DNA of 31,712 nt from a virus. The notes below the pieces were generated by a model. The model saw nothing but the letters and a program-made list of their open reading frames with translations, searched no databases and was not told the origin of the DNA. The DNA lies in IMG/VR virus record IMGVR_UViG_3300048121_001055, positions 1 through 31,712 of that record; one strand, given 5' to 3'. Of this stretch, positions 1-29,000 are shown one piece after another. Every line of letters starts with the position of its first letter. Within the stretch, counting starts at the first letter, position 1. A program made the translations under genes and the position numbers.

Positions 1-1
1 G

Positions 2-805
2 GGTACTACTGATAACACTCCATATAACAATAACGCAGGAAGTACTGCTGATAATGGAATCGTTCTATCAGAAGCAGGTTGGTTAGCAGCTGCTCGTTAT
101 CAAGGTACTGTAGCTTTTTTAAATAGAACTGATAACGATGGAGATATTGCCGTATTCAGAAAAGATGGCACAACAGTTGGAAGTATTGGTACTATTTCTT
201 CTGATTTAGAAATTCATTCTTCTGTTTCAGGACATGTGGGATTACGTTTTGGAAATGGTGGTTTATTCCCTACAGACAATACAGGAACAGTAACAAATGG
301 AGCTGCTGATTTAGGTGCTTCTACTTTAACATTCAAAGACCTCTACCTTTCAGGCGGTGCTTATCTAGGCGGTACAGGTTCAGCAAACCATCTTGACGAT
401 TATGAAGAAGGTACTTGGACTCCAGTTGTTCATGGTTCTACAGACGGAGCGTACACATATACTGGAGTAACTTCTCGTTACACAAAAATTGGCAATCTAG
501 TAACATTAACTTCCCAATTAACAAATATAACGACAAGCGGTTCTGGTCACGCAGGATATTTGCAAATACGCAATGCTCCTTTTAATAAAATAGGAGACAC
601 CTTCCCTGTTGGCAGTGTAGAACTTTCAAGCGTAGATATGTCGTCAGGAACAACTTTTGCAACTGCTCAATTTATTACATCAGGTTCAACCAACACTCTT
701 TATGTAAGACAGCATGGTGACAACTCGGGTGGTGGAGATTTACCTGTTTCTGCAATTAATAGTGGAACTAGCGATATTACAATTACTATCCAATATACAG
801 CATAA
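2..805 (+). CDS. Tail fibre-like structural protein, C-terminal part (5' end outside the window)
   Basis: The reading frame is open from the first complete codon to a TAA at 803-805, so only the C-terminal 267 residues are seen. The protein is rich in Gly, Thr, Ser and Asn and predicted to be mostly beta strand, as in trimeric fibres. It carries the motif DDYEEGTWTP followed by a YTKIGN turn, which I recognise from the C-termini of many marine phage fibre or appendage proteins. No catalytic motif is visible. An internal ATG at 236 exists but the upstream frame has the same composition and no stop, so it is not the start. A role in host surface binding is inferred from family and position. Confidence 0.8.
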   Translation, partial: GTTDNTPYNNNAGSTADNGIVLSEAGWLAAARYQGTVAFLNRTDNDGDIAVFRKDGTTVGSIGTISSDLEIHSSVSGHVGLRFGNGGLFPTDNTGTVTNGAADLGASTLTFKDLYLSGGAYLGGTGSANHLDDYEEGTWTPVVHGSTDGAYTYTGVTSRYTKIGNLVTLTSQLTNITTSGSGHAGYLQIRNAPFNKIGDTFPVGSVELSSVDMSSGTTFATAQFITSGSTNTLYVRQHGDNSGGGDLPVSAINSGTSDITITIQYTA

Positions 806-821
806 CAATTTAACTAATATG

Positions 822-837
822 CCTAGTGGACTCTAGG
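822..837. repeat. Short inverted repeat between the fibre gene and the next gene
   Basis: CCTAG and CTAGG arms of 5 bp surround a 6-nt loop. It lies 17 nt after the fibre stop codon and 24 nt before the next start. There is no T-run, so it is not a convincing intrinsic terminator; it could be an RNA processing or stability hairpin. Confidence 0.3.
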
Positions 838-860
838 TACGGACAAAGGAGAAAAATAGA

Positions 861-1154
861 ATGGCAATAACAAAAGAATTAACAGAAGATAAAATAGAAG
901 TTGTAGGAGACTACAAAACTATACAAGTAAGAACAGCTACAGTTATCAAAGAAGATGGTGAAGAGCTTAGTAGGTCTTTTCATAGACACGTATTAGATTG
1001 CGTATCATCTGTACAAAATGATGACGATAGTTGGACTCATACAGATACTGATGTATCAGGAGAGTCTTCAGAGGTTCAGGGCATAGCTTCAGCCGTTTGG
1101 ACAGACGCAGTGAAGACTGCAAAACAGAACGCTAACGAAGCAAACTCAATATAG
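861..1154 (+). CDS. Small hypothetical protein next to the fibre gene
   Basis: A 97-residue acidic, soluble protein. The ATG is preceded by an AAAGGAG Shine-Dalgarno at about 846-852. I do not recognise a named domain, though small proteins of this size and style often follow fibre genes in marine phages. It has no signal peptide, membrane segment or Cys motif. A Trp/Asp-rich centre (residues 54-66) and a polar helical C-terminus are the only visible features. A structural or chaperone role for the fibre is possible from position only. Confidence 0.7.
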   Translation: MAITKELTEDKIEVVGDYKTIQVRTATVIKEDGEELSRSFHRHVLDCVSSVQNDDDSWTHTDTDVSGESSEVQGIASAVWTDAVKTAKQNANEANSI

Positions 1155-1162
1155 GAGATATT

Positions 1163-1321
1163 ATGGATATAATGAGTATGGTTACTTGGATAACCACTAT
1201 TGTGACTGTTGCATCAATTGTTGCAGCATCCACGCCAACACCTAAAGACGATGAGTGGATCGGTAAACTTTATAAGTTTGTAGATCTTCTTGCTCTTAAT
1301 ATAGGCAAAGCTAAGCAATAG
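1163..1321 (+). CDS. 52-residue single-pass membrane protein, holin-like candidate
   Basis: The ORF starts at ATG 1163, with a GGAG Shine-Dalgarno at 1154-1157, and ends at TAG 1319-1321. Residues about 7-24 form a hydrophobic helix (MVTWITTIVTVASIVAA), followed by a charged segment (PTPKDDEW) and an amphipathic C-terminus. Small one-TM proteins in this position, between fibre and lysis genes, are often annotated as holin-like, but this class cannot be assigned by sequence alone. It lies 8 nt after the preceding gene and 5 nt before the next membrane protein gene, so the set is probably co-transcribed. Confidence 0.65.
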   Translation: MDIMSMVTWITTIVTVASIVAASTPTPKDDEWIGKLYKFVDLLALNIGKAKQ

Positions 1322-1326
1322 AATAA

Positions 1327-1677
1327 ATGTCTGAAGCTGTTTCAATAATAACCGAACTAGGTTTTCCCATTGCAGCAGCTTTAGGATTAGGTGTTTTTGT
1401 TTGGAAACTAATCAATAGAATTATTGACGGGATGGAAACCAAACTTGACACCATGGACGATAAAGTTCAAACAAGTCTTAACACCATGGAGGAGAGAGTC
1501 TCCACAAAACTTGATAGTCAGTATGGCATTATAGTAAGCTTAATAGACAGGGTAAGGGCATTAGACAATCAAAGCATAAGGCAGGATGTTCTTTTGAAGA
1601 CATTGTTGGGTGTTCCAAACTTAGTTGATATTGACAAGATAGCGAAGGCGGATAGAGATGATCAAAGAAAAGATTAA
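1327..1677 (+). CDS. Membrane-anchored coiled-coil protein (holin-like or pore-associated)
   Basis: A 116-residue protein. Residues about 10-30 (GFPIAAALGLGVFVWKLI) form one transmembrane helix, and about 35-85 form a heptad-rich coiled coil with repeated METKLDTMDD / MEERVSTKLD segments. One TM followed by a coil resembles BhlA/UviB-type small holins, but the match is only architectural. Its last 20 nt overlap the csgF start, which implies translational coupling with the curli-like cassette. It could be a membrane partner of the CsgF/CsgG pair rather than a lysis protein. Confidence 0.65.
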   Translation: MSEAVSIITELGFPIAAALGLGVFVWKLINRIIDGMETKLDTMDDKVQTSLNTMEERVSTKLDSQYGIIVSLIDRVRALDNQSIRQDVLLKTLLGVPNLVDIDKIAKADRDDQRKD

Positions 1678-2155
1678 CGAAGAAAGAGAAAAGCTTTTTC
1701 TTATAAGAGTTATTTTAACCATTGGGTTATTTCTTTTCGCAGGAGTTGTTGTTCAAAACATAGAATCCGATGAGATGGTTCACAAATTTAAGTCGCCGTC
1801 TTTTAGTGGTATAAACACAAGCTCTCACTATTTAACAATAGAATCGCAAGAGAATATAAGAAAAATGAGCTTAAAGGCTGAAATAAAAGCTCTGCAAGAT
1901 CAAATAGCAAGAGATGCCGAAAACACAACGCTGGCACGTTTTATTCGAAACTTAGAAAGTCGAATATATGCACAGCTTAGTAGACAGCTTGTGGATAACT
2001 TGTTTGGTGATACAGCACAAACATCTGGGGTTATAGAGCTGGAAGGTAATAGGATAGAATATACATCGGATGGAATTGTAATAACCTTAAAAATAACGGA
2101 CCCAGATGGAAATATCACAGAAATTAGTTTGCCTATCGGCAGTTTTACTTTCTAG
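1658..2155 (+). CDS. csgF: CsgF-like curli assembly factor
   Basis: In bacteria CsgF binds the outer face of the CsgG pore, narrows it and links it to the growing curli fibre. This 165-residue protein has an N-terminal hydrophobic segment (about 14-33), acting as a signal peptide or anchor. It is followed by VHKFKSPSFSG (41-51), which matches the CsgF N-terminal pore-insertion segment (pattern F-K/R-x-P-x-F-x-G, then a Y/F-L pair at 58-59). The C-terminal half has a helical region (72-116) and a beta-rich tail (125-165), like CsgF. It is longer than the E. coli protein (138 residues), mainly in the cytoplasmic n-region and middle helix. It overlaps the preceding gene by 20 nt and csgG by 50 nt. 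Identification is by my recollection of the family sequence, not by a search. Confidence 0.85.
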   Translation: MIKEKINEEREKLFLIRVILTIGLFLFAGVVVQNIESDEMVHKFKSPSFSGINTSSHYLTIESQENIRKMSLKAEIKALQDQIARDAENTTLARFIRNLESRIYAQLSRQLVDNLFGDTAQTSGVIELEGNRIEYTSDGIVITLKITDPDGNITEISLPIGSFTF

Positions 2156-2972
2156 TTGTGCATTAATAGTAGACCCACTAGAAAATAACCTACCACCATT
2201 TCAGCACATAGAAGAAGCACAGATAGATTCTTTGGTTCTTACTGAGCTTGCTAATATAAAATCTAATCAAGAGGCAAAGCCAATCGTGGCTATATACTCT
2301 GGTGGTTTTACAGATCAGACGGGGCAAAGGAGAAGTAATAGTAACTACGCAACCTTCTCATCTGCGGTCACTCAGGCACCAGATGCATATTTAATAAGAG
2401 CACTCAAGCATGCAGGCAGTAATCATAAAGGATTCTTTGAGGTAGTAGAAAGGGTTGGGCTCGACTTTGTAACTAAAGAAAGACAAATTATAAGAAGCAC
2501 CAGACAGGAGTTTGGGGAAAAAAAGAAAATGCAACCTTTAATGTTCGCTGGCTTGATAATGCAAGGCGGTGTGATATCTTATGAAAGTAATGTGAAGAGT
2601 GGTGGTGCTGGAGCAAGATATCTGGGCATCGGAATGTCCAGGCAATACAAACAAGACACAGTAACCATATCACTTCGTACAGTTTCCGTAAGTACGGGAA
2701 AGGTGCTACTAGAAGTATTAGTAACAAAAACAATACTAAGTGCCTCTATTGATCAAGATATATTTAGATTTATTACTGACAGCACAGAGTTAGTAGAAGT
2801 AGAAAGCGGTCTTGTAAGAAATGAATCAATTAACATAGCACTACAAACAGCAATAGAGACTGCTGTTTTACAGACTATAAAAGAAGGTGCTCAAAATGGA
2901 TATTGGAGTATTTATGAAAAGACTAAAACTATTAATTGCGATGATGCTTGTATCTCCGCTATACGCGGCTGA
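2106..2972 (+). CDS. csgG: CsgG-like outer-membrane curli secretion pore lipoprotein
   Basis: CsgG forms a nonameric outer-membrane beta-barrel that exports unfolded curlin. The 288-residue protein starts with a lipoprotein signal peptide and lipobox LSSC, with Cys18 as the expected lipidated residue. The core is highly CsgG-like: FSSAV (84-88), YESNVKSGGAGARYLGIG (159-176, nearly identical to E. coli CsgG), VSVSTGK (193-199) and the FRFI segment (220-223). Mature length (271) is close to the 262 of E. coli. In the constriction loop Phe56 (E. coli mature numbering) is kept as F84, while Tyr51 and Asn55 are not conserved at the aligned positions and the loop is one residue longer. It overlaps csgF by 50 nt and the curlin-like gene by 59 nt. 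Confidence 0.93.
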   Translation: MEISQKLVCLSAVLLSSCALIVDPLENNLPPFQHIEEAQIDSLVLTELANIKSNQEAKPIVAIYSGGFTDQTGQRRSNSNYATFSSAVTQAPDAYLIRALKHAGSNHKGFFEVVERVGLDFVTKERQIIRSTRQEFGEKKKMQPLMFAGLIMQGGVISYESNVKSGGAGARYLGIGMSRQYKQDTVTISLRTVSVSTGKVLLEVLVTKTILSASIDQDIFRFITDSTELVEVESGLVRNESINIALQTAIETAVLQTIKEGAQNGYWSIYEKTKTINCDDACISAIRG

Positions 2973-3624
2973 TAACGAGATATATATTGATCAAAGCGGT
3001 GCAACTGCAAATATAGACTTAGAACAGTTAGGATCTGGTAACTTAATAGGAGGTCTGTTGGCAGTAGCTGGTCAGATGACCGCAGCAGATTTTGACGGAG
3101 GAAGCCTAACCTTAGATGTTAATCAAATAGGTAATACTAATAAATTTTTAGCAGATGTGTATGCAGACTCGCTCACAGCATTTCTTGAATTTGATGGAGA
3201 TAATAATACATATACCTTAACAGTAGACCCAGATAACACCTATGGTGCTGATAACTCAGACCTAAATATAGTTGCAACAGGATCATCTAATACATTTACT
3301 TTAGATCTAGCAACAACAGGACTTGCTTCTAATACAGACCTTGACTGGATAATAAACGGTGACAGCAATACTTTTGATTTTAATATAAACTATGATGGTG
3401 CTACCAACTATGTAGATGTGGACGGGGACAGCAACACAGTTAATTTCACAGGAAGTGGATTTGCAGGTGGTTACTTTTATTTAGACCAAGAAGGTAATGG
3501 CAGAACATTTAATATTAACCAATCATCAACGCAGGACAACGACTGGCTCAGGATACTGTCTAATGGTGATAATGGTACTATTTGTGTCATTCAAAATGAC
3601 CAAGGTACAAGCACAGGCTGTTGA
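2914..3624 (+). CDS. Secreted curlin-like repeat protein (candidate CsgA/CsgB-type substrate)
   Basis: I chose ATG 2914, with GGAG at 2905-2908, because it gives a compact signal peptide (KRLKLLIAMMLVSPLYA) with cleavage near residue 19. A longer GTG start at 2887 would bury the signal. The mature protein of about 218 residues has seven or eight irregular beta-type repeats of about 20-25 residues around G-[DSN]-x-N turns: QLGSGN (38-43), QIGNTN (71-76), FDGDNNT, TGSSNT, NGDSNT, DGDSNT (171-176), QEGNGR. These resemble curlin repeats (QxGxxN) but several have Asp in place of Gln. C224 and C236 could form a C-terminal disulfide. Position directly after csgG supports a role as the exported substrate, probably amyloid-forming. 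Amyloid formation itself is not shown. Confidence 0.8.
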   Translation: MKRLKLLIAMMLVSPLYAADNEIYIDQSGATANIDLEQLGSGNLIGGLLAVAGQMTAADFDGGSLTLDVNQIGNTNKFLADVYADSLTAFLEFDGDNNTYTLTVDPDNTYGADNSDLNIVATGSSNTFTLDLATTGLASNTDLDWIINGDSNTFDFNINYDGATNYVDVDGDSNTVNFTGSGFAGGYFYLDQEGNGRTFNINQSSTQDNDWLRILSNGDNGTICVIQNDQGTSTGC

Positions 3625-4651
3625 GGTTGGAAACATATCTGAGTTAAACGGCTCTGCACAAATACTAAGAGACAAGACATACACAGCAGAAGAATCATTT
3701 AACATACAGCAGAATGATGAGGCTGTAACAACAAATGGTCGTATGGCTATAACATTCTTAGATGAATCCCAGGTACGATTAACTGAACATTCACAGCTTG
3801 TTGTGGATGAATTTATCTATGACCCAGATCCCAGTAAGTCCAAGATGGCTATCACCTTTGGTCTTGGTACTGCAAGGTTTATTACTGGAAGCCTTAACAA
3901 GATAGATAAAAACAATATAGATCTCAAAACACCTACAGCAAACATAGCAATCCGAGGGACTGACTTTACAGTTACAGTAGACGAGACTGGAAGATCATTG
4001 CTAATACTTTTACCAGATGAGTTCGGTATATCTAGTGGCGAGATACTAGTAACTACAGCCATGGGTACAGTAACCCTAAATAAACCTTACGAGGCAACAA
4101 CCGTAGATGTTTTTGAGAAGGCTCCAAGCAAGCCAGTTATATTAGATTTAACATTAGACCTTATAGATAACATGCTTATCGTCACCCCGCCGAAGGAGCA
4201 GGTAGTAGATGTAGAAAGGGTTGTTGTTAAAAAAAAGAACATACTTGATTTTGATGGACTGGATGAGGACTTCTTAGAAGAGGACTTCTTAAAAGAAGAC
4301 GAGCTGGAGTTTGGCGAGCTGGACATAAACTACTTGGATGTTAATTTCTTAGAAGACTTGCTTGATGTTATTGATGCACTAGAGGAGATAAGAGAGGAAG
4401 ATCAGCTAGCTCAAGACGCAACATCTACTAATATAACTGGAACAAAAATGGGTCAGGATCTTAACACACAGATAACAACCTTTCTTACAGGACAAACATT
4501 AACATTATTAAGAAGTGTCAGTGATACTGCAAGGGTAGATATAGATGGGTCTGCATCTTATACAGTAATATTTATACAGGACGGCACATCTAATATTATT
4601 AAGGTCAATGGCGGCAATGGAAGCACTATTAAAATAACTCAAAGTAACTAA
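3563..4651 (+). CDS. FecR-domain periplasmic or surface protein with curlin-like C-terminus
   Basis: With start ATG 3563 the protein has 362 residues and a short hydrophobic leader ending near VQAQA (16-20). Starts at 3497 or 3596 are also possible; the first overlaps the curlin-like gene by 128 nt, and neither has a better ribosome site. Residues about 24-175 form a FecR domain, with the typical TPTANIAIRGTDF motif at 123-135. Residues 226-285 are very acidic, with DEDFLEEDFLKED repeats. The last 33 residues include IFIQDGTSNIIKVNGGNG and end in KITQSN, which looks like a curlin repeat. FecR domains act in envelope sensing or surface anchoring, and are often encoded next to CHASE2 proteins. 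The TAATG junction at 4649-4653 couples it to the cyclase. Confidence 0.8.
   Translation: MVIMVLFVSFKMTKVQAQAVEVGNISELNGSAQILRDKTYTAEESFNIQQNDEAVTTNGRMAITFLDESQVRLTEHSQLVVDEFIYDPDPSKSKMAITFGLGTARFITGSLNKIDKNNIDLKTPTANIAIRGTDFTVTVDETGRSLLILLPDEFGISSGEILVTTAMGTVTLNKPYEATTVDVFEKAPSKPVILDLTLDLIDNMLIVTPPKEQVVDVERVVVKKKNILDFDGLDEDFLEEDFLKEDELEFGELDINYLDVNFLEDLLDVIDALEEIREEDQLAQDATSTNITGTKMGQDLNTQITTFLTGQTLTLLRSVSDTARVDIDGSASYTVIFIQDGTSNIIKVNGGNGSTIKITQSN
4265..4294 (+). repeat. Two tandem 15-bp units in the FecR-protein gene
   Basis: GAGGACTTCTTAGAA is followed directly by GAGGACTTCTTAAAA. They encode two EDFL-type acidic units; further degenerate copies follow downstream in the protein (LEFGELD, LDVNFLED). 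Confidence 0.85.
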
Positions 4652-6399
4652 TGAAAAAACTAATATTCTTACTTCTACCCATATTGTCTTTGCCATTGGT
4701 ATTTCAATCAACACCAACAGAAATACTTAAACTAAAAATATTTGATAGCTTGGTTACTAAACAAGATCCTTCTGGATATTTCACAATACTAAACATAACC
4801 GAAGATGATATAGATAGAGAAGGGGGATATCCCATACCTCGTAAAAGGCTTGGCGAAATACACTCAGATATTATGGCAAGAGGGGCTTTGGGTGTTGGTT
4901 GGGTTATTTCCTTTCCCCACCCCGATCGACTCGGGGGAGATAAAGAATTTGCAGAGTCTTTACAACAAGGTACATCAATATTGGCTATGTTTGAAGCCCC
5001 AAATCAAATATACCCAAAAACTATTGGAACGGTGATACAAGGACCAGATGTTAGTGGTATGTTATCCAAAGGTGTGGTTCAAAATACTAACAACCTTAGA
5101 AATTATATACAACAGGGTATTGCAACTGCACCTACCGACATAGACAACCTAGTCAGAAGAATGCCCTTACTTTTAAAAACGCCAGACGGTTATGTTAGTT
5201 CGTTTGGTACCGAGGTACTCAAAAGCCTTGTTGGTGCAAAAACCTATATTATAAAAACCAATGACAATGGTATAGAGCAGATAGCAGTAAGAGGACTACC
5301 GCCAATCAAGACAGATAGCCTTGGTCGTAAATGGATTAGTTGGGTAGATACTCCACAAACCGATTTGCAAGAAATGAATGTTGAGGGTAGGTTTGTTTTT
5401 GTTGGAATTACCGCACCAGGAATCATGCCACAGGTTGCAACTCCAGTTGGATTATTAGAGCCGCATAAAATTCAAGCAGCACTATCCGAGTCAATTCTTA
5501 TAGAAAACTCTCCAAGGATTCCAGATTGGTCTTTGGCTGTCGAAATTGTGATTTTCGGAATTTTTGTGTCGTTGACGTGGCTTGTAATCAACTATCTTGG
5601 TATAACCAAGGGCATAAGTATAGCTGTAGTATTGCTATTAACCACGGGCTTCTTAGGAGCTTATAGCGTTCAGAGAGGTTATTTAATAGATTTCTCTTGG
5701 ACTTTTATTTCACAACTCTTAATTTCTGGTATTGCCTTCTATTTAAACTTTAGAAAACAGTTTAAACTCCGCCAACAGGTCAAAAAACAATTTGAACATT
5801 ACCTTGATCCAAGACAGGTAAAACAATTACAGGATAATCCAAAGCTATTAAAACTAGGAGGAGAAAAAAGATACGCAACATTTCTCTTTACGGACGTAAG
5901 AGGATTTACGTCCTTGTCAGAAAAGCTAAAGCCAGAAGAAGTAACTGAGATAATGAATAAGGTTCTTACCATACAGTCAGATACTGTAAAGTTTTATGAT
6001 GGAATGGTAGATAAATATATTGGCGATGCAATGATGGCAATCTTTAATGCACCCTTAGACCTAGATGGTCATGAACAGGCTGCTGTTTTATGTGCCAAGG
6101 AGATACAGGACAAGGTACAACTATCTGGTCTAGGTCTTGAAATAGGCGTGGGTGTTGCTACAGGATTTGCGGTTATAGGTAACATGGGCAGCTCAACTAG
6201 ATTTGATTACACAGCTATTGGTGATTGTGTTAACACTGCGGCAAGGCTTGAATCCGCTACCAAAGAGGTAGGGTTTGATATATTGATAGGAGAAGAGACT
6301 GCCAAAAAGTGTGGTTTTGAGTTAAAATTATTAGAACCAATTAAAGTTAAGGGAAAAGAAGATCCCTTACAAATTTATACTATTAATCATGGCAGTTAA
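4651..6399 (+). CDS. CHASE2-domain transmembrane class III adenylate cyclase
   Basis: This 582-residue protein should make cAMP from ATP in response to an extracytoplasmic signal. An N-terminal hydrophobic segment (3-19) precedes a CHASE2-type sensor (about 20-292, with LNITEDDID, RLGEIH and VFVGITAPG motifs). Three TM helices follow (about 295-315, 321-340, 347-366), then a short linker and the cyclase domain (about 403-580). Catalytic residues are all present: metal-binding D415 (FTDVRGFTSLSE) and D459 (VDKYIGDAM), adenine-selecting K455 and T521 (DYTAIGD), and N528 and R532 (VNTAARLES). The K/T pair fits an adenylate cyclase of the class IIIb kind. CHASE2 ligands are unknown. It is the last gene of the cassette. 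Confidence 0.92.
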   Translation: MKKLIFLLLPILSLPLVFQSTPTEILKLKIFDSLVTKQDPSGYFTILNITEDDIDREGGYPIPRKRLGEIHSDIMARGALGVGWVISFPHPDRLGGDKEFAESLQQGTSILAMFEAPNQIYPKTIGTVIQGPDVSGMLSKGVVQNTNNLRNYIQQGIATAPTDIDNLVRRMPLLLKTPDGYVSSFGTEVLKSLVGAKTYIIKTNDNGIEQIAVRGLPPIKTDSLGRKWISWVDTPQTDLQEMNVEGRFVFVGITAPGIMPQVATPVGLLEPHKIQAALSESILIENSPRIPDWSLAVEIVIFGIFVSLTWLVINYLGITKGISIAVVLLLTTGFLGAYSVQRGYLIDFSWTFISQLLISGIAFYLNFRKQFKLRQQVKKQFEHYLDPRQVKQLQDNPKLLKLGGEKRYATFLFTDVRGFTSLSEKLKPEEVTEIMNKVLTIQSDTVKFYDGMVDKYIGDAMMAIFNAPLDLDGHEQAAVLCAKEIQDKVQLSGLGLEIGVGVATGFAVIGNMGSSTRFDYTAIGDCVNTAARLESATKEVGFDILIGEETAKKCGFELKLLEPIKVKGKEDPLQIYTINHGS

Positions 6400-6532
6400 G
6401 ATAAAAGTAAAAAGTGTAGACCCACAAAGAAGAAAGTCTAAACGCACTTCAATAGGCAGTTCATTGAACACCTATCCAAGAAACAAGAATGCCAAGAATC
6501 AGTATAAAAAATATAGAGGACAAGGAAGATGA
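6389..6532 (+). CDS. 47-residue basic small protein
   Basis: ATG at 6389 lies inside the end of the cyclase gene (11-nt overlap) and TGA at 6530-6532 overlaps the holin ATG by 4 nt. The product is rich in Lys, Arg, Ser, Gln and Asn, with no hydrophobic helix. I do not recognise it. The two tight overlaps argue that it is translated and links the accessory cassette to the holin gene in one transcript. Nucleic-acid binding is possible from charge only. Confidence 0.6.
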   Translation: MAVKIKVKSVDPQRRKSKRTSIGSSLNTYPRNKNAKNQYKKYRGQGR

Positions 6533-7014
6533 AGTTTAAGTTAATAAAAAATTTAGTAGGTGCGGTTGCTCCAACATTAGGCTCTGCATTAGGCGGACCT
6601 CTTGGTGGTCAGGCGGCATCGGTTGTAGCAAAAGTACTTGGATGTAATGCAGATCCGAAGTCTATCAACAATGCAATACAAAGTGCAACACCAGAGCAGA
6701 TGCTGGAGCTCAAGAAAGCAGAACAGGAGTTTGAGGTGCAAATGAAGGAGCTCGATGTTGATGTTTTTAGATTGGAAGTAGCAGATGGTCAAGACGCAAG
6801 AAACAAGTTTAGCAAGGATTGGACAGCCCGTATTATGGGGATTGCAGTAGTTGGGGGTTTTATGGGGTATATATTTCTTGTTACTTTACAACCACCAGAG
6901 CAGAACTCAGAGGCTTTAATTAATTTAGTTTTAGGATATTTGGGTGGATTGGCTAGTGCTGTGATATCTTTTTATTTTGGTGCATCAAATACATCAAATA
7001 ATGAAAAGGAATAA
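6529..7014 (+). CDS. Phage holin, 3TM type (GTA-holin-like)
   Basis: A 161-residue protein with a Gly/Ala-rich hydrophobic N-terminus (about 8-38), a charged helical middle ending in ADGQDARNKFSKDWTARIMG, and two TM helices (about 101-118 and 128-150). The D-x-x-DAR element before a W/R-rich turn and two closely spaced TMs is typical of the 3TM holin family. Holins perforate the inner membrane at the end of infection. No endolysin gene is visible nearby; it may lie outside the window or be replaced by an unrecognised gene. ATGA overlap couples it to the preceding small gene. Confidence 0.75.
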   Translation: MKFKLIKNLVGAVAPTLGSALGGPLGGQAASVVAKVLGCNADPKSINNAIQSATPEQMLELKKAEQEFEVQMKELDVDVFRLEVADGQDARNKFSKDWTARIMGIAVVGGFMGYIFLVTLQPPEQNSEALINLVLGYLGGLASAVISFYFGASNTSNNEKE

Positions 7015-7017
7015 ACT

Positions 7018-8700
7018 GTGGCTGGATTTAAATTAAATACATTCGGAGGGCTAAATAAAAAAATAGCCCCAAGACTATTGCCAGAGGACGTTGCCCAAGA
7101 AACCTCTAATACATTTTTGGACAGAGGTAGGCTTGAAGGGTTGCCACAAGATCTTAATGATCCATCTGAATCGGGACCAACACACCCAGCCTCAAACATA
7201 AGTGCTGCAACAAGCACAATATTTAAAGCAACAGACAGTGCGTGGTTCACATTTAATAATGATGTAGATGTTATTAAGAGTCCAATAAGAGAAGATGCGT
7301 TTAGCAGATTTTACTTTACTGGATTTTCTGGAAGCTCTGGATTCCCAAGAATGGTCGATGCTGCAAACGGCATATCAGGAAGTGGTCCTTACCCAGTTAC
7401 TAGCTATAGATTAGGTTTACCAACCCCAGGTGCATTTACTTCTGCTCCAAGTGTTGATAATACAACTGCGGCTGATGGTGCTACAACAAGCTCAAGAGCC
7501 TATGTTTATACAGAGATAACAACATTCGGAGAAGAAGGACCGCCAAGCCTCGTTACAGCTGCGGACATTATTGATGCGGCTAATGGGTCTACAGTAACTT
7601 TATCACTACCAGCTGGATCAAGTGGTGTTTACTCTATAGCTAAAAGAAGAATATATAGGACAGATCTTAATGGTGTATTTAGGTTTGTTAGAGATGTCGC
7701 TGGTGTGTCATCGGGAACAACAACGGATGCTGTCTTGGATGCCTCTCTCGGGGAAGAAATAGAATCAGCAGACAATCTAGCACCGCCAGATGATGTAACA
7801 TCAAATCACCCAGACGGACCAATGTTTGGAATAACAACAATGCCCAATGGTATAACAGCAGGTTTTAGTGGCAACACTCTACTATTTAGTGAACCATTCT
7901 TACCACACTCATATCCTTTAGCAAATCAATTAACAACAGCAACCGATGTTGTAGGTATAACAACTATAGGATCGGGCTTGTTGGTTACAACAAAAGGCAA
8001 GCCAGTTATAGTTTCTGGTACAGATCCAAGGGCTATGGCTTCTTTGGAGATAGACGCTAACCTACCAAATACAAATAAAAGATCTTTGGTGGATATGGGT
8101 GAGTATGCTATTTATGCATCACCAGATGGCTTAGTATTAGCGGCAAACTCAGATGTTCAATTAATAACCCAACAAATATTTACTCGTGATCAGTGGCAGG
8201 AATATTATCCAAACAATATAGAGGCATATGAATACGAAGGAAAGTACATAGGCTTTACTTGGGATGGTTCTAACACATCAACGAAGAAAGGTTTCTTGTT
8301 TGATCCTAGGGGTCAGAAGAATGCTTTTATTGATTTAGATTTTTATGCACATGCTGGATTTAATGACAGGGAGAACGATGAGCTTTACCTTGTTATTGGA
8401 GGAGTCCTTAAGAAGTTTGCCAGATCAACAAGTCCAAGATCTTACTCTTGGAAATCAAGGGAGTTCTATTCAAACAAACCAATATCTCCAGGCGTAGCAA
8501 AAATAAGTGCTGAGTCTTATAGCGATCTTACTTTTAAGTTATACGCAGATGGATCCCTTAAACATACCCAGGTTGTCACTAATAATAATATCTTTAGATT
8601 ACCTGGAGGTTATCAGGCTAAATCATTTTACATAATTATTGAGGGCACAGATGCTGTCAATGAGGTTTGTGTATATGAAAGCCCTAGGGAGATAACTTAA
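7018..8700 (+). CDS. Tail structural protein (560 residues)
   Basis: It starts at GTG 7018, with AAGGA at 7006-7010. No signal peptide, TM or catalytic motif is visible. The N-terminus (FGGLNKKIAPRLLPEDVAQ) resembles the opening of podoviral tail proteins that describe themselves as 'tail' or 'virion structural' in marine phages. The middle (about 160-260) is a Thr/Ser-rich beta region with an RRIYRT motif. The C-terminal half has repeated short beta blades (MGEYAIYASPDGLVLA), suggesting a propeller-like fold. Position directly before the gpJ-like protein supports a tail hub or tube role. The stop overlaps the next ATG (TAATG). Confidence 0.7.
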   Translation: MAGFKLNTFGGLNKKIAPRLLPEDVAQETSNTFLDRGRLEGLPQDLNDPSESGPTHPASNISAATSTIFKATDSAWFTFNNDVDVIKSPIREDAFSRFYFTGFSGSSGFPRMVDAANGISGSGPYPVTSYRLGLPTPGAFTSAPSVDNTTAADGATTSSRAYVYTEITTFGEEGPPSLVTAADIIDAANGSTVTLSLPAGSSGVYSIAKRRIYRTDLNGVFRFVRDVAGVSSGTTTDAVLDASLGEEIESADNLAPPDDVTSNHPDGPMFGITTMPNGITAGFSGNTLLFSEPFLPHSYPLANQLTTATDVVGITTIGSGLLVTTKGKPVIVSGTDPRAMASLEIDANLPNTNKRSLVDMGEYAIYASPDGLVLAANSDVQLITQQIFTRDQWQEYYPNNIEAYEYEGKYIGFTWDGSNTSTKKGFLFDPRGQKNAFIDLDFYAHAGFNDRENDELYLVIGGVLKKFARSTSPRSYSWKSREFYSNKPISPGVAKISAESYSDLTFKLYADGSLKHTQVVTNNNIFRLPGGYQAKSFYIIIEGTDAVNEVCVYESPREIT

Positions 8701-11129: not shown

Positions 11130-11497
11130 TGAATTTATTTACAATATACAAAACATCTACTGGCGAAATTTTATACAATACATCAACCGTTGCCGAGATA
11201 GATGAGCTTGGTTTGCAGGAGGGTGAGGGTGCTGTTGAGGGGCATTACCAGTCTAATGAGTACAAGATCCTTGAGGAAGTTGCTGTATTGAGGACAGACA
11301 ATGTATTGGAGATGTTAAGGATAAAGAGGGGTCAATTACTATCAGAATCAGACTGGACTCAGACATTGGACACACCATTAACAGACTCAAAGAAGGCAGA
11401 GTGGGCAACTTATAGACAATCGTTAAGAGATTTACCATCTAATAATTCAGATGCGACTTCTATAGATGATGTAACATTCCCTACAGAACCAGCTTAA
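11129..11497 (+). CDS. Phage tail assembly chaperone-like protein
   Basis: A 122-residue protein starting at the TAATG junction with the gpJ-like gene. The C-terminal part contains the characteristic pattern R-x3-LL-x-ESDWTQ, then DTPL, KK-x-EWATYRQ-x-LRDLP (about 69-104), found in tail fibre assembly chaperones of the Phage_tail_APC kind. The N-terminal part is a small beta domain (TGEILYN). Such proteins assist folding or attachment of the fibre encoded beside them. Confidence 0.8.
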   Translation: MNLFTIYKTSTGEILYNTSTVAEIDELGLQEGEGAVEGHYQSNEYKILEEVAVLRTDNVLEMLRIKRGQLLSESDWTQTLDTPLTDSKKAEWATYRQSLRDLPSNNSDATSIDDVTFPTEPA

Positions 11498-11550
11498 TTA
11501 GTAATATAATGGTACATAATTATGCAATTTAATGATATCTTACAAGGGAA

Positions 11551-12542: not shown

Positions 12543-12544
12543 TT

Positions 12545-13538: not shown

Positions 13539-13540
13539 AA

Positions 13541-22375: not shown

Positions 22376-22459
22376 ATGACAAAGATTATTAACCCCGCTG
22401 TAAAACTAAGATATCAGAGTATTACTTACCTCACAAGCATCGCTCAAATAATCTTTTGA
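22376..22459 (+). CDS. Possible 27-residue ORF at the convergent junction
   Basis: ATG 22376 follows AGGGGG (22366-22371) at 4 nt spacing; the ORF ends at TGA 22457-22459, overlapping the 3' end of the opposing integrase gene by 54 nt. The product has a basic start and hydrophobic end (SIAQIIF). There is no support beyond the ribosome site, and the frame may be chance. The 57-nt gap between the giant gene and the integrase holds no clear terminator. Confidence 0.2.
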   Translation: MTKIINPAVKLRYQSITYLTSIAQIIF

Positions 22460-23206
22460 CAGATGTGCATACCTGTTGACGATGTTAAAGTCTGACCAAC
22501 CACCAAGATGTTGTAATGTGTGAAGCGGTGTTCCATTCTGCACATGGTGAGTAGCCCAAGTGTGGCGTATATCATGCCATCTAAATCCCTCAAGCTCAGC
22601 TTTCTTTAAAGCGTTATACCAGCCAGTGTTAGAAGCCCTGTTCATTTTTCTTCCAGAGTAGGTAAAAACATAAGGACCCTGTTGTTTAATTGATCCTAGA
22701 AGCTCTCTGCATTTATTGTTTAATGGAACGCAAAGGCTCTTCCCGTTCTTTGTTTCACTTCCGTCTATTGCTATCTGGTCTTTTTTTATGTCATCCCATT
22801 TAAGATTAAAGCAGTTGGACATCCTCACCCCAGTTAGGAGGCTAAATATAAAAGGCTTTTGCAAGTGAGAGGGGAGCTCCCTTTGCAGTCTTTTTATATC
22901 ATCAATGGTAAAGTATTTAATTCTTTTAGAATCTTCCTTTACTCTTTTGATTATGGGCTTAGTATCCAACCACCCTAACTCTTCGTAGGCGTACATAAGC
23001 ACAGCCCTGAAGTAGTTTAAATATCTGTTAACGGTACCAGGACTTTTCTTTATTCCCGATCTCGCCTTCACGATATGTTCTTTAGTAATATCTTTAAGAT
23101 CAACCCCATCAAAGAGCGGATCAAAGTATTTGCGATAGGTAAAGTCGTTCTTACCCATCTTATTGAACCTATAGTACTCAGTAACTGCTTCTTTCCATGT
23201 ATTCAT
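22406..23206 (-). CDS. int: Tyrosine recombinase integrase
   Basis: A 266-residue protein. An N-terminal SAM-like core-binding domain (1-95, TWKEAVTEYY, KSPGTVNRYLNYFRAVLMYA) is followed by the catalytic domain (about 96-266). Catalytic residues are R128 (TGVRMSN), K153 or K156 (TKNGKS), H211 and R214 (WHDIRHTWATH), W237 (GGWSD) in the H/W position and nucleophile Y246 (NRYAH). It lacks an arm-binding domain of usual size, so it is shorter than lambda Int. It should integrate the phage in the host chromosome. No attP core or tRNA fragment is recognisable beside it. It is the last gene of a leftward operon. Confidence 0.95.
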   Translation of the reverse strand: MNTWKEAVTEYYRFNKMGKNDFTYRKYFDPLFDGVDLKDITKEHIVKARSGIKKSPGTVNRYLNYFRAVLMYAYEELGWLDTKPIIKRVKEDSKRIKYFTIDDIKRLQRELPSHLQKPFIFSLLTGVRMSNCFNLKWDDIKKDQIAIDGSETKNGKSLCVPLNNKCRELLGSIKQQGPYVFTYSGRKMNRASNTGWYNALKKAELEGFRWHDIRHTWATHHVQNGTPLHTLQHLGGWSDFNIVNRYAHLSKDYLSDACEVSNTLIS

Positions 23207-25407: not shown

Positions 25408-26355
25408 TTATTCCTCCAGTAGTTTGGTATAAACCCTAGAGTCACCCTCAGATCTGTAATTCTCCATTACATCCACGGGTATCTCTTGATCCTTTACCAG
25501 TCTGGCATAGTTTATTCTCCCTCTTGCTTGTGTCATATGACATTTCACTTGTGAGGTACTAAAAGCTCCGCCATGCTTTGATATAAGCTTGACAGACAAT
25601 TCTTTTTTCCTCTCATCAAGGATAGAAGCTTTGTCTTTGAGCTGCTTTAGTTCTGTTAAAACAGATGCTAATTCAGATGTATCATCCTCATCATCAACTG
25701 CCTTGTAATTTATTCCGGGCTCCTCTTTTTCTTGAGTCCACCTTTCAATATAGTTTGGATCTATTCTTTTTTCGTTGTACCAAATCATAAATTCTTCTGC
25801 TTTTGGTATATATGTTTCTGCCCAAGATCTATCTCTTTCAATCCATTCTTGATAGTGTTCATCGTTGCTATACCATTGAAAGAAAAGCATCTCGTCTAGG
25901 TCCATGCACTCCATAGCCATCTGCATTTGATGCCAGTAATTTCTTTTTTGTTCTTTAACATTGGTACATGGTTTTCCCTGCGGGCACTTTACCTCTACGG
26001 CAGAAACCTTTCCGTTTCTCCCTTGAACCATAATGCCGTCTGGAGATATACCCATCCAGTTATATTTTGGATGTATAACAAAAGAAGGCTGGGTTATTTT
26101 ATAACCCATACCTGATAGTGTGGCTAAGGCTAAAGGCTCGCTGTCTGTTCCGTGCTTCATAGCAAACATAGCAAATTGATTAAAGGGATCTTGTGTAAGC
26201 TTGTTTGCTTCCCTATACATATCTCTTCCTAGAGACTCCCACTGATCACCCTTTGTCCAAATACATTCCTTTGCGGTTTTGCATATTCTTGTGCCAGTAA
26301 TTCTATTGGCTCTTTGTTCATGCCACTCAGGGGTGCCTTGTTTTATTTTAGCCAT
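25408..26355 (-). CDS. YqaJ-type viral recombinase exonuclease
   Basis: A 315-residue protein. It has the YqaJ/lambda-exonuclease pattern: GTPEWHEQRANRITGTRI (7-24), acid E73 (GTDSEPLA), D106 (SPDG), E121-x-K123 (VEVKCP) and YWHQMQMAM (140-148). It should degrade one strand of double-stranded DNA 5' to 3' and pass the other to the annealing protein encoded next door. The C-terminal third (about 225-315) has a coil and a Lys/Arg-rich end beyond the nuclease core. It shares one nucleotide with the ERF gene. Confidence 0.93.
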   Translation of the reverse strand: MAKIKQGTPEWHEQRANRITGTRICKTAKECIWTKGDQWESLGRDMYREANKLTQDPFNQFAMFAMKHGTDSEPLALATLSGMGYKITQPSFVIHPKYNWMGISPDGIMVQGRNGKVSAVEVKCPQGKPCTNVKEQKRNYWHQMQMAMECMDLDEMLFFQWYSNDEHYQEWIERDRSWAETYIPKAEEFMIWYNEKRIDPNYIERWTQEKEEPGINYKAVDDEDDTSELASVLTELKQLKDKASILDERKKELSVKLISKHGGAFSTSQVKCHMTQARGRINYARLVKDQEIPVDVMENYRSEGDSRVYTKLLEE

Positions 26356-26969
26356 TACTTAATCACCTTGCTGTATAAAAGATTTAATTGAACTCTAGCC
26401 TCTTTATCGTTACTAAGATCCGCAACCTTGTCATACTGTTGGAAAAGTTTTAATGCTTCTTCCTTGGTCTTGAGTTTCTTAAGTTCTTTTTTAAACTCGT
26501 CTATCATTGACATTTCTTGTTGATCGTTTTCTGGTTTTGAGTTTTCGTCTACGCCCTCAAGCTCTGGTTCAACAACGCCCTCAAACGGCACACAAAATGT
26601 TTCAAGTAATGCATTCCTATAAGCAAACGATCTTGCTGCTTCTAAATCCTTCGCCTGTTGCGATAGGCTATGACCAACATAAGACCTATCTACATATGAA
26701 CCATCTTCAGTACACAAAAATCTTAAGGTTCCAACAACTCTGGTAAGAGTATTTTTGCCATCAATAAATTTTGTAGAAACATTTAAGTCTGGCTGGACTA
26801 TTGTAAGAATTTTGTTTTCATACAGGGGTTTTGAAAAAGATTGTATAATCTGATCAATACCTCTATATTTATATTTCTGATAGTTATTCACACCCTCTTT
26901 CGCAATTGGGTTGTGCATCATGTAGGTTTGTACGTTTTGCAACGCCTCGTATATTTTTTCTTTTGCCAT
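26355..26969 (-). CDS. erf: ERF-family single-strand annealing protein
   Basis: A 204-residue protein. The core (1-125) has the ERF features YKYRGIDQIIQSFSKPL, a long beta hairpin with GTLRFLCTEDGS, and SLSQQAKDLEAARSFAYRNALLETF (105-129). The C-terminal part (140-204) is acidic then helical. ERF proteins form rings that anneal complementary strands, and it pairs with the adjacent YqaJ exonuclease. AAGGAG lies 8 nt before the ATG. It is the first gene of the leftward recombination operon. Confidence 0.93.
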   Translation of the reverse strand: MAKEKIYEALQNVQTYMMHNPIAKEGVNNYQKYKYRGIDQIIQSFSKPLYENKILTIVQPDLNVSTKFIDGKNTLTRVVGTLRFLCTEDGSYVDRSYVGHSLSQQAKDLEAARSFAYRNALLETFCVPFEGVVEPELEGVDENSKPENDQQEMSMIDEFKKELKKLKTKEEALKLFQQYDKVADLSNDKEARVQLNLLYSKVIK

Positions 26970-27018: not shown

Positions 27019-27070
27019 GTCTTTACAATAATTATTTTTTGAGGTTTAATTGTCTTTCACGAGGGAAAAT

Positions 27071-27703
27071 ATGTCATTAGAATACATCACTAAAGTTTTA
27101 AAGGTGGAGGTAAAACCCACTCAGAAACTTATATTAATAGTTTTAGCAAACTACTCAGACGAGTTTGGTCACTCATACCCGTCACACAAAAAATTAACAG
27201 AGCTGACGAACCTGTCCCTGACCGCAATTAAAAGCAACTTAAAAGCACTCCAAGATATTGGATATGTGGACTGGGAAAAAAGAAACAATACAAGCAATCT
27301 TTATAAATTAAATGTATGGGCGGGAGGTGACTACCCCCGGGCGGGAGGTGACTACAATACTAAAGGTAATACTAAAAAGAAATATATACTTGATTTGAAT
27401 AGAATTAATGAAATTTTTAAAGAGCAATGCGATAAGGTGTTTTATGTACATAGTGCAAATGCTTTCAAGGCAGAGCCAAGATGGAAGGAACTGCGTGAAC
27501 TGGGGAGGAAAGGAATCATCTCACCAAAGACTGGTATTGTTATTGATCTAACACTAGAAGAGTTCTGGTATAAATATTTTGAGGTAGCCAATTCAGAAGG
27601 GCATAAGAAATGGATCAGATCTTACTGGAGTAAGAAACCACAGTTAGTAACAATGTTAAGCGTAAATCAATTTGAAGCAATTATAGAGAGGCGATATGGA
27701 TAA
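27071..27703 (+). CDS. Helix-turn-helix replication initiator-like protein
   Basis: I prefer ATG 27071, with GAGGG at 27061-27065, giving 210 residues; a TTG start at 27050 adds seven. The N-terminal part (5-85) is a winged helix-turn-helix (YPSHKKLTELTNLSLTAIKSNLKALQDIGYV). A linker has a duplicated RAGGDY/WAGGDY piece (about 84-98). The C-terminal domain is basic and aromatic (EFWYKYFEVANSEGHKKWIRSYW). Its place before a DnaB helicase fits a lambda-O or DnaD type initiator or loader. It overlaps the helicase gene by 8 nt. Confidence 0.75.
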   Translation: MSLEYITKVLKVEVKPTQKLILIVLANYSDEFGHSYPSHKKLTELTNLSLTAIKSNLKALQDIGYVDWEKRNNTSNLYKLNVWAGGDYPRAGGDYNTKGNTKKKYILDLNRINEIFKEQCDKVFYVHSANAFKAEPRWKELRELGRKGIISPKTGIVIDLTLEEFWYKYFEVANSEGHKKWIRSYWSKKPQLVTMLSVNQFEAIIERRYG

Positions 27704-29000
27704 TATATATGAATTAGAAGCAAACACAATTGGGTCCATGATCTTAGACTACAGCAAGTTTCAGGACGCACAAGACAAGGGATTGCTTCCAGAGGATTTT
27801 GAGTTCATTTCCTACAGGCAGGCATATGAGATCATGTTGGAGAAGAATGCCAACGACATAGTAACAATCAGAAGCAATATGAAGGATGACTTTGCGTTTA
27901 AAGATGTACAAGAGGCAACAGCACACTGTATTAGTCCTGCTGGTTTTAGTAGTTGGTTAAAGCTCATGCACGCAAAGACAGCAAACAATAAGCTGTTGAA
28001 GCTTGCAAAAGAAATACCAGCAATTGTTGAAGAAAGAACTGGCATTGATGAAAAAGTAGACAGGGTCAATCAGCTACTTATTGAAAATAAAATAACCAAG
28101 AACTCTGGTGCACCAAAAGAGGCTAGAGATATTCTTGAGACGGTTCACGAAGAACTCAGGAGTGCCGGAACTGAATCACAGAACATTGTAAAGACGGGGT
28201 TTAAAGGTATAGACTCAAAGATCAGGGGGTTCAAGCCGGGTGATTTAATTATTGTTGCTGGCAGACCAGGAATGGGTAAAACTACATGGGCTCTAAACAT
28301 TGCATCAAATAATATATATAACGGAAAAAATGTTTTGATCTTCAGTTTAGAAATGACTAATGAGCAGTTGGTAAAAAAGATAATAAGTTCAGAGTCTGGA
28401 ATATCAACAGATAAAATGATGAGCGGAGAGCTAACAAGTTCTGACTGGAAGAACTTCGAGAGATCGAAGGAAAGATTGGCTGGGTGTGACTTATATATTT
28501 ATGACAAGTCCCCAATTACAATTGAAACCCTAGTTAATAAAACAAAAGCAATACACGCCGTCAAGGACATTGATCTAATAGTTGTGGATTACTTACAGCT
28601 ACTTATGACCACAAGCAAGGCACCTAGCACATCTGATAACAGGACCGCATCTATGACATACATATCAAACCTTTTAAAGGGACTGGCGAAAGAAATAGGA
28701 TGCCCTGTCATATCCCTGTCACAGTTAAACAGGGGTGTGGAATCAAGACCAGACAAAAGACCGGTGCTATCTGATCTTCGTGACTCAGGTTCTATAGAAC
28801 AAGATGCGGATATGGTTATAATGTTATACAGAGAAGATTATTATGATGCACTGGAAACAGGAAACTCTGAAATAATAATTAAGAAAAACAGAATGGGAGA
28901 AACAGGAACATTTGAATTAAGTTTTGATGGGGCTATGTCTAAATTTGTAGACCCAGAGGACTTGGCATTCGGGAGAAGAGAAGAATATGGAATCATCTGA
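27696..29000 (+). CDS. dnaB: DnaB-like replicative helicase
   Basis: A 434-residue protein. It has a short N-terminal helical domain (1-130, ELEANTIGSMILD) and a RecA-fold motor: Walker A GRPGMGKT (about 189-196), H1a E in FSLEM, Walker B LIVVDYLQL (about 294-302), a Gln-containing motif SLSQLNRGVESR and the DLRDSGSIEQDAD arginine-finger region (about 355-367). It should unwind DNA 5' to 3' at the fork. No primase or polymerase gene is in the window. It overlaps both neighbours. Confidence 0.95.
   Translation: MDNIYELEANTIGSMILDYSKFQDAQDKGLLPEDFEFISYRQAYEIMLEKNANDIVTIRSNMKDDFAFKDVQEATAHCISPAGFSSWLKLMHAKTANNKLLKLAKEIPAIVEERTGIDEKVDRVNQLLIENKITKNSGAPKEARDILETVHEELRSAGTESQNIVKTGFKGIDSKIRGFKPGDLIIVAGRPGMGKTTWALNIASNNIYNGKNVLIFSLEMTNEQLVKKIISSESGISTDKMMSGELTSSDWKNFERSKERLAGCDLYIYDKSPITIETLVNKTKAIHAVKDIDLIVVDYLQLLMTTSKAPSTSDNRTASMTYISNLLKGLAKEIGCPVISLSQLNRGVESRPDKRPVLSDLRDSGSIEQDADMVIMLYREDYYDALETGNSEIIIKKNRMGETGTFELSFDGAMSKFVDPEDLAFGRREEYGII

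Follow-up and report, generated by a model that had tools for sequence, protein, structure and literature searches.

A curli-type cassette in the lysis region of marine phages: a candidate secretion and sensing module of the late genes

A cassette of curli-type (type VIII) secretion genes resides in 31,712 nucleotides of viral DNA (IMG/VR record IMGVR_UViG_3300048121_001055, positions 1 to 31,712), a stretch analysed at its full length and called here the window. The cassette is plausibly, with a probability of about 0.55 in our estimate, a late-transcribed phage secretion and sensing module, acting on the envelope shortly before lysis. A first-pass annotation, made from the sequence alone, had read the five genes between 1658 and 6399 as encoding CsgF, CsgG, a curlin-like protein, a FecR protein and a CHASE2 cyclase, with overlaps at every junction. 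Both the identities, by Pfam and homology, and the overlaps hold (Table 1); the Pfam matches for CsgF, CsgG, FecR, CHASE2 and Guanylate_cyc are all above the curated cut-offs. The cassette is indeed flanked by phage genes. The conserved block begins one gene upstream, with up116. The same annotation knew of no described system with the whole set, and here it has to be corrected: a CsgF-CsgG-CsgA/B-FecR-(second CsgA/B)-adenylate cyclase module has been described in HTVC023P-type podoviruses and in myoviruses of the pelagiphages (Wittmers 2022, PMC9599517). The gene set is thus already known; what is added here is an integrase-bearing lineage, the placement in the lysis region, the questioning of two labels, and the recognition of an exchange unit.

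The position of the cassette has been assessed on distinct loci with available flanks. Loci (L numbers) retrieved with the window CsgG, up116 or the late gene p511 are called non-myovirus-type, those retrieved with the CsgG of phage HTVC008M myovirus-type. A locus was scored as lysis-adjacent when a relative of a holin, a spanin or an endolysin, or of p1544, the gene preceding p511 in the window, was found within 2.5 kb. When both sides are considered, 50 of 55 non-myovirus-type loci are lysis-adjacent, 27 by annotated types and 23 by p1544 only, and 5 have none of these neighbours. By query, the lysis-adjacent loci (annotated plus p1544-only) are 18+3 of 21 for CsgG, 9+10 of 24 for up116, and 0+10 of 10 for p511, the last count being circular because p511 adjoins p1544. 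Downstream of the cyclase only, within the same distance, the count is 58 of 59 for loci from the CsgG scan and from contigs of metagenome-assembled genomes (MAGs), 39 by annotated types and 19 by p1544 only, 16 of 27 for the up116 scan (best 80 of 564 relatives), 18 of 18 for the p511 scan (all by p1544, and circular), and 0 of 16 for myovirus-type loci. Eight of the 11 misses of the up116 scan include seven loci with p1544 just before up116 (L159, L161, L172, L175, L183, L195, L207) and one, L225, with neither; nrdB-like genes lie downstream in those of the seven whose listed genes extend far enough. In two of these loci (L159, 6038-6448; L183, 13176-13586) the gene directly 3' of the cyclase resembles, by eye, a small heat-shock protein of the HSP20 type.

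The genes next to the cyclase vary with the backbone. In loci assigned by flanking markers to a lineage called here B, the genes that come after the cyclase encode a holin (phrog_3427, 3.9e-30) plus an endolysin (phrog_894, 5.8e-34), and the cassette sits between portal and scaffold/capsid genes. In L022 and L114 the inner spanin, the outer spanin and a lysozyme follow, in L078 both spanins, and in the window orf47 and p1544. The first-pass annotation called the latter a holin. This is plausible by position only: family searches give no holin name, the best hints being a weak match of p1544 to phrog_785 (0.17) and of its relative in L243 to phrog_3427 (0.042), and p1544 did not match the lineage B holin when profiles, built from few sequences, were compared. 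Among 20 listed of 403 phage records, p1544 is annotated as hypothetical or not at all, and once as DNA topoisomerase.

The two genes which flank the window cassette are found joined elsewhere. In L157, L158 and L163, which have zero csg match at E<10, up116 (91-92% identical to the window) and p1544 (86-87%) succeed each other 6 bp apart; next comes a small protein, one end of which looks hydrophobic by eye, and then lysozyme. These contigs carry the intact junction of the two flanking genes, in another phage backbone. Among the best 80 of 564 up116 relatives, 69 have 1 kb of downstream sequence, and four (the same three and L179) lack csg genes there; up116 likewise occurs without csg genes in L243, L244 and L255-L257, retrieved in the p511 scan. 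Altogether, p1544 adjoins up116 in eight of the nine contigs of this kind, L179 being the exception. Among the 43 p511 loci whose upstream flank reaches 2.5 kb, 30 contain the cassette; in the other 13 p511 is immediately preceded by a relative of the lineage B holin (8 loci) or by p1544-up116 (5 loci). The notion that up116 is exclusive to the cassette, suggested by the HTVC008M copy (6 phage records matched, all cassette-bearing), was disproved by the IMG/VR scan. Because it is found beside p1544 without csg genes, we take up116 for a lysis-region membrane protein. up116 and p1544 would belong to a resident lysis module, and the cassette would have been inserted beside it.

Proteins of the up116 type measure 93-116 residues and have one N-terminal transmembrane (TM) segment. 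Where contigs have room, the gene is present in 31/31 and 57/57 loci retrieved by the window and HTVC008M CsgG, respectively; over all query sets it is found in 92/92 non-myovirus-type loci, a count which is partly circular, and 57/57 myovirus-type loci. It is doubled in the cultured phages Melnitz and HTVC008M, and in L078, L110-L112, L114 and L119. A second up116-type match lies between CsgF and CsgG in ten myovirus-type loci (L355, L356, L359-L362, L364, L366, L368, L371). Position and doubling suggest that up116 is probably the gene labelled 'HK' (histidine kinase) by Wittmers 2022 (PMC9599517). Neither the window protein nor the HTVC008M copy matches any kinase family in Pfam or NCBIfam, and up116 is far too short for a kinase; judged by these searches, it is not a histidine kinase.

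The same placement may be explained by assuming that the pore is itself a part of the lysis machine. The moment of lysis would be set by CsgG and CsgF, which would make the outer membrane permeable or gate it, and the fibre would be secondary. This is a version of the pinholin/secretin idea advanced, with a role in lysis timing, for the Melnitz cassette (Buchholz 2022, PMC9004378). The neighbourhood of lysis genes (holin, spanins, endolysin) in several backbones, the location of the window cassette between two genes which are neighbours in csg-less contigs, and the failure to find the CsgE gate in 13 records all fit such a role. We regard it as rather unlikely, since the csg-less contigs still carry lysis genes, the curlin-like gene, superfluous for a bare pore, is kept in 104/104 non-myovirus-type and 40/40 myovirus-type loci, and the query lysis genes are not near the cassette in myovirus-type loci. 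CsgG is, moreover, an outer-membrane protein, and pinholins are inner-membrane proteins.

The module is highly conserved. A total of 241 CsgG-bearing IMG/VR loci, 185 of them distinct, were compared, genes being scored only where the contig has room. CsgF is found in 110/110 non-myovirus-type and 59/59 myovirus-type loci, FecR in 98/98 and 24/24, the cyclase in 49/54 and 13/13; the five loci with room but no cyclase are L178, L186, L188, L191 and L214. The core order CsgF-CsgG-curlin-FecR-cyclase is kept in 184 of the 185 loci, 164 of which show a strictly increasing order, 10 an extra curlin gene after FecR, and 10 the second up116 between CsgF and CsgG; it is broken only in L048. The latter (3424-15032) hosts two cassette copies, as a result of a duplication or an assembly error; in the first copy FecR and the cyclase match within a single reading frame. 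In a set of 88 loci (79 from IMG/VR, 2 phages, 7 MAG contigs) all six genes are present in 73, and the order is strictly increasing in 85, exceptions being L081 and L082, which have an extra curlin gene, and L048. Flanking markers assign 45 of the 88 to lineage B, 25 to the window type, 1 to both and 17 to neither. The homologues are therefore neither found singly nor in unrelated order. They also dispose of the idea that host curli genes were joined to a phage contig by faulty assembly, which retains next to no probability: the cassette recurs in 185 distinct loci and in the cultured phages HTVC008M and Melnitz, and in 5 of 5 alphaproteobacterial csgFG loci none of FecR, cyclase and up116 is found within ~8-10 kb.

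Part of the cassette is exchanged as a block. When L027, a close relative, is compared with the window in 300-bp blocks, identity is 95-96% over 901-1800, falls to 64-83% over 1801-4800, and is 90-98% over 4801-8700; the block before 901, within a fibre gene, is 57% identical. The divergent stretch extends from inside CsgF to about the FecR/cyclase boundary, and protein identities follow the same course (up116 100%, CsgF 83%, CsgG 85%, curlin 74%, FecR 77%, cyclase 92%, p1544 99%). No comparable drop is seen in L002 over 901-8700. By sequence comparison, CsgF, CsgG, curlin and FecR behave as one exchange unit, and FecR therefore appears to travel in company with the pore and the fibre, not with the cyclase. 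A strict CsgG tree (41 rows) requires 4 switches between the lineages A and B, of which no fewer than 2 are forced by starred branches; the approximately unbiased test does not reject a single clade (p 0.09). An earlier tree was dropped because its 'A' label was too loose, p1544 alone having been counted as A.

The secretion apparatus is recognisable at both its components. The lipoprotein Cys18 of CsgG is conserved in 56 of 57 viral rows, with 1 gap. The CsgF profile matches the E. coli CsgF of solved CsgG:CsgF complexes (7.8e-06) over an N-terminal segment which we take to be the CsgG-binding part; the window CsgF used as a single sequence gave no such alignment. Of seven curlin-type relatives, three score above the Curlin_rpt cut-off (L082, 8.6e-06; L082 second gene, 1.9e-04; L081 second gene, 5.2e-08), the two genes of L110 remain sub-threshold (0.027, 0.059), and the first L081 gene and L111 have no Curlin_rpt match in Pfam. 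The NCBIfam CsgA/CsgB matches of the window protein are also sub-threshold (0.0072, 0.012). An AlphaFold2 model built on 39 sequences is a confident beta-solenoid, with a predicted local distance difference test (pLDDT) score of 84.9 and a predicted template modelling (pTM) score of 0.82. The top VIA-align rows for it are SufB/SufD-type beta-solenoids (best Z 17.5, root-mean-square deviation 2.6, 191 residues aligned), with no curli entry among the rows listed, and the best match of the sequence profile in PDB is only 0.14; the resemblance to SufB/SufD speaks for fold class, not kinship. The curlin-like identity rests on homology to myophage proteins, some of which pass the Curlin_rpt cut-off, on the sub-threshold NCBIfam matches, and on the solenoid model. 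In the second curlin gene of HTVC008M (L081, 10486-11811) the Curlin_rpt repeats are joined to a PA14 domain (2.7e-06), which might provide a curlin-type protein with a head for binding glycans. A 1,499-base 'Salmonella phage' record (OR851715.1), possibly host DNA, also contains a gene for CsgG (39% identity).

The FecR protein has a hydrophobic N-terminus, followed by the FecR domain and an acidic linker, and carries curlin-type Q motifs at its C-terminal end. The motifs number 1.97 per 45-residue tail, against 0.106 in shuffled sequences, 0.98 against 0.70 elsewhere in FecR, 5.59 against 0.45 in curlins, and 0.48 against 1.30 in cyclases, a pattern picked post hoc and counted on related rows. 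A Pfam search with ten 51-residue ends, nine of them FecR tails, returned just a sub-threshold Curlin_rpt match (L114, 0.086). A FecI-type partner (Sigma70_r2) is found in none of 11 window and IMG/VR records, some of which are fragments; HTVC008M and Melnitz have one Sigma70_r2 match each, far from the cassette, and one of them is above cut-off. Of the 12 best bacterial matches of FecR (190 genomes, one class), 10 lie in open frames longer than 500 residues, up to 6679, and the best NCBIfam matches are surface proteins, far below cut-off. The long frames and the surface-protein matches make a role as 'iron regulator' unlikely, and the cassette FecR looks, from its sequence, like a secreted protein rather than a FecI/FecR regulator.

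D415, K455 and D459 of the cyclase are invariant among the 69 rows compared; N528 is kept in 67 of them and R532 in 68. We presume that these D, K, D, N and R residues have their customary catalytic roles. Its association with FecR is not restricted to phages. In 17 of the 190 bacterial genomes, preselected by FecR matches, a FecR match is located no more than 3 kb from at least 7 of 36 CHASE2 rows, against 0.31 expected, one CHASE2 row below cut-off having been excluded; in L123 the cyclase is near FecR, yet not at a CHASE2 position. FecR-CHASE2 gene clusters have been published in bacteria (PMC9239204, PMC5192318). CsgF, in turn, was identified in 7 of 385 genomes, two matches being phage cassettes in G011 and one a weak match without csg locus; the five alphaproteobacterial csgFG loci fetched, searched with viral profiles, are those mentioned above. 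Since csgFG occurs in Alphaproteobacteria without FecR and cyclase, and FecR-CHASE2 pairs occur in bacteria, the cassette looks as though phages had combined two modules of bacteria, csgFG-curlin and FecR-CHASE2.

How the window relates to systems already described can be summarised as follows. CsgF and CsgG have been reported in HTVC008M-like myophages (Zaragoza-Solas 2020, PMC7029224), and phage curli genes at all 65 GOV2.0 stations (Wittmers 2022, PMC9599517), where aggregation, superinfection defence and uptake were proposed as functions. The Wittmers module shares with the window the order upstream gene(s), CsgF, CsgG, CsgA/B-like, FecR, cyclase, and the lack of CsgE. The window differs in having an integrase and late genes distantly like those of Vibrio phage douglas 12A4, in lacking the optional second curlin, and in an upstream gene which is not a histidine kinase by family searches; PolA, which defines the HTVC023P type (PMC9599517), was not found in two near relatives. 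HTVC008M (KC465899) and Melnitz (MZ577098) carry up116-type genes, CsgF, CsgG, curlin, FecR and cyclase in the same order as the window. In contrast, their genomes are T4-like, a second curlin gene lies between FecR and cyclase, relatives of the query lysis proteins were not found nearby, and their CsgG is 44-45% identical to that of the window. Bacterial curli operons of E. coli and Alphaproteobacteria have a CsgF-CsgG pair, a lipoprotein pore and a curlin-like substrate too, but the window cassette lacks CsgE and includes FecR and a CHASE2 cyclase. Bacterial FecR-CHASE2 pairs (PMC9239204; PMC5192318) similarly place a FecR-domain protein near a CHASE2 receptor, an adenylate cyclase in Campylobacterota; in the window no phosphodiesterase/TPR gene is seen, the output is not a kinase, and a secretion pore and a fibre candidate are added. 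In PHROGs, CsgF, CsgG, FecR and the cyclase fall into families of unknown function. The words 'integrase' and 'temperate' occur 0 times in the consulted text of Wittmers 2022 (PMC9599517), and 'holin' as a word start 0 times in that text and in that of Buchholz 2022 (PMC9004378); an integrase-bearing carrier and holin or spanin neighbours are unmentioned in the consulted main-text parts of the phage-curli literature.

Table 1. Cassette, flanking genes and other features of the window.
Feature	Position	Strand	Description and supporting matches
orf52	1163..1321	+	52 residues, one hydrophobic segment; phrog_9685 (unknown function); fills the gap 5' of the cassette
up116	1327..1677	+	116 residues, N-terminal TM segment 7-25, remainder long and hydrophilic; opens the conserved block
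CsgF	1658..2155	+	PF10614 2.8e-15
CsgG, outer-membrane lipoprotein pore	2106..2972	+	PF03783 3.5e-45; PDB CsgG 2.5e-40
Curlin-like fibre candidate	2923..3624 (listed ORF from 2887)	+	homology to Curlin_rpt-bearing myophage proteins; AlphaFold2 beta-solenoid
FecR-domain protein	3497..4651 (true start maybe downstream)	+	PF04773 3.1e-10
CHASE2 class III adenylate cyclase	4651..6399	+	PF05226 1.1e-26; PF00211 (Guanylate_cyc) 2.2e-17
orf47	6389..6532	+	basic, 47 residues; overlaps cyclase end and p1544 start
p1544	6529..7014	+	161 residues, two C-terminal TM segments; phrog_1544 (unknown function); holin-like by position only
p511, internal virion protein	7018..8700	+	late structural gene; phrog_511
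Tyrosine integrase	22406..23206	-	PF00589 3e-25; phrog_1 2.2e-53
RecE-like exonuclease and Erf-like annealing protein	25408..26969	-	phage-family matches
O-like initiator and DnaB-like helicase	27050..29000	+	phage-family matches

The genes flanking the cassette match phage families, and the cassette is closely packed, on the same strand as the late genes; both apparent gaps around it (1163-1321 and 6389-6532) are occupied by small ORFs. The ATG at 2923 is a likelier start for the curlin-like protein than the listed one at 2887. Terminator-like sites exceed expectation (11 vs 5.1), none of those listed falling in the gap behind the cyclase, and promoter-like sites over 1-9000 are about as frequent as chance predicts (23 against 24.9). 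A separate moron with own promoter and terminator is unsupported, as the gaps hold small ORFs and the promoter scan is at chance. Rfam and tRNA searches of the window gave zero matches. Elsewhere in the window, a 2407-residue protein (15125-22348) matches in its C-terminal part phage families of unknown function, and a RecA-dependent nuclease (PF16786, 1.7e-19) is encoded at 29448-29756.

The carrier is called a podovirus because of the distant relationship of its late genes to those of douglas 12A4 and of Shiga toxin (Stx)-type phages, with ~31% identity for p511. The terminase of a close relative, G001, is likewise ~31% identical to the douglas 12A4/Stx-type proteins, its best-scoring match being Roseobacter phage CRP-7 (35%). 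PolA was found in 0/2 contigs of the window lineage and 0/4 of lineage B, all possibly incomplete. The first-pass annotation spoke of a temperate phage. The integrase is there, and from it alone the phage is called temperate and can probably integrate into a host; no repressor family was recognised in 10 window proteins scanned, and a close prophage was not found. In 297 genomes of the G012 family the integrase has only distant matches (best 6.2e-17, 30%), and at E<=1e-20 p511 matches 0/385 genomes of one class, in a scan that had no positive control. Searched with the single window CsgG, genomes yielded no match; the CsgG profile retrieved six MAG contigs of 3-23 kb with all or part of the cassette. 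Five of the six belong to four MAG bins with 3-9 PolA matches each, and are therefore read as phage contigs in bins. The Maricaulis MAG G011 holds two different phage cassettes on short contigs (C42 and C32; L109 and L119) and nine PolA matches, which suggests that its bin includes phage contigs. In 397 genomes of the G012 family CsgG was found twice at E<=1e-20, once in what is apparently an already-seen MAG contig. A phosphoadenosine phosphosulfate reductase gene resides in a lineage B phage (L105, 1648-2514).

An integrase invites the hypothesis of lysogenic conversion, according to which the cassette is expressed by the prophage and provides the host with fibres, adhesion or superinfection exclusion. 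Contigs of the window lineage carry the integrase in 6/6 tested cases, a promoter-like site precedes up116 (1296-1324), and a FecR-CHASE2 kinase operon has been linked to biofilm in Burkholderia in the literature consulted. The location in a closely packed late region, on the strand of the late genes, argues against a biofilm trait expressed by the prophage. Lineage B has the window-type integrase in 0/4 contigs, all possibly fragments, and the repressor search was negative, as said; we consider lysogenic conversion improbable. The odds of an uptake pore are equally low. Ungated CsgG would admit nutrients or cofactors to the infected cell (Zaragoza-Solas 2020, PMC7029224; Wittmers 2022, PMC9599517), and the latter authors note that the pore may stay open, which agrees with the failure to find CsgE in 13 records. 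However, such a pore has no need for CsgF, the curlin-like protein and FecR, all kept where contigs have room, and the late position would be poor timing for uptake.

A number of observations weigh against a late module acting on the envelope before lysis, and must be set against the evidence given above. Query lysis proteins are near none of the 16 myovirus-type loci. Of the 50 lysis-adjacent loci, 23 count as such by p1544 alone, which family searches do not name as a holin, and five non-myovirus-type loci (L178, L185, L212, L225, L230) have neither a lysis relative nor p1544. Accessory genes are frequently inserted next to lysis genes and yet have no role in lysis, Stx phages being the textbook case; as this is common, proximity favours late expression more than lysis function. 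The promoter-like site lies immediately 5' of up116, on the plus strand, though the whole scan is at chance. CsgE is absent in 13/13 records searched, some of them fragments, with a positive E. coli control. The window curlin-like protein has no Curlin_rpt match of its own in Pfam, and its model no PDB match in Foldseek at E<=0.001. The FecR model is of low confidence (pLDDT 40.7) and unusable. Finally, clumping was not seen with Melnitz, according to the consulted part of PMC9004378.

With these reservations, a module used late at the envelope is still the reading we prefer. The cassette would be transcribed late, with virion and lysis genes. CsgG would assemble into a nonameric outer-membrane pore capped by CsgF, and the curlin-like protein would form surface fibres, for which the curlin-like FecR tail may act as nucleus. 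FecR may signal the state of pore or fibre to the periplasmic CHASE2 domain, and thereby set the level of cyclic AMP. At the burst, fibres could tether debris, virions or sibling cells, or bar competing phages. A bolder version, tentative and on the doubtful side, is that several unrelated marine phages keep the module as a lysis accessory: FecR, with its curlin-like tail, would couple fibre or pore assembly to the cyclase, and amyloid would coat the dying cell, leaving tethered virions and debris, or a phage-proof ghost. If true, amyloid coating would be an envelope-remodelling stage of lysis, a stage which, to our knowledge, has been described in no studied phage.

The csg-less junctions, the placement near lysis genes, the exchange unit, and the doubts cast on the 'HK' and 'FecR regulator' labels lead to testable predictions on timing and partner genes. 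The module is extended to an integrase-bearing lineage, and its placement beside lysis genes in several unrelated viruses suggests when, and perhaps why, the cassette is used.

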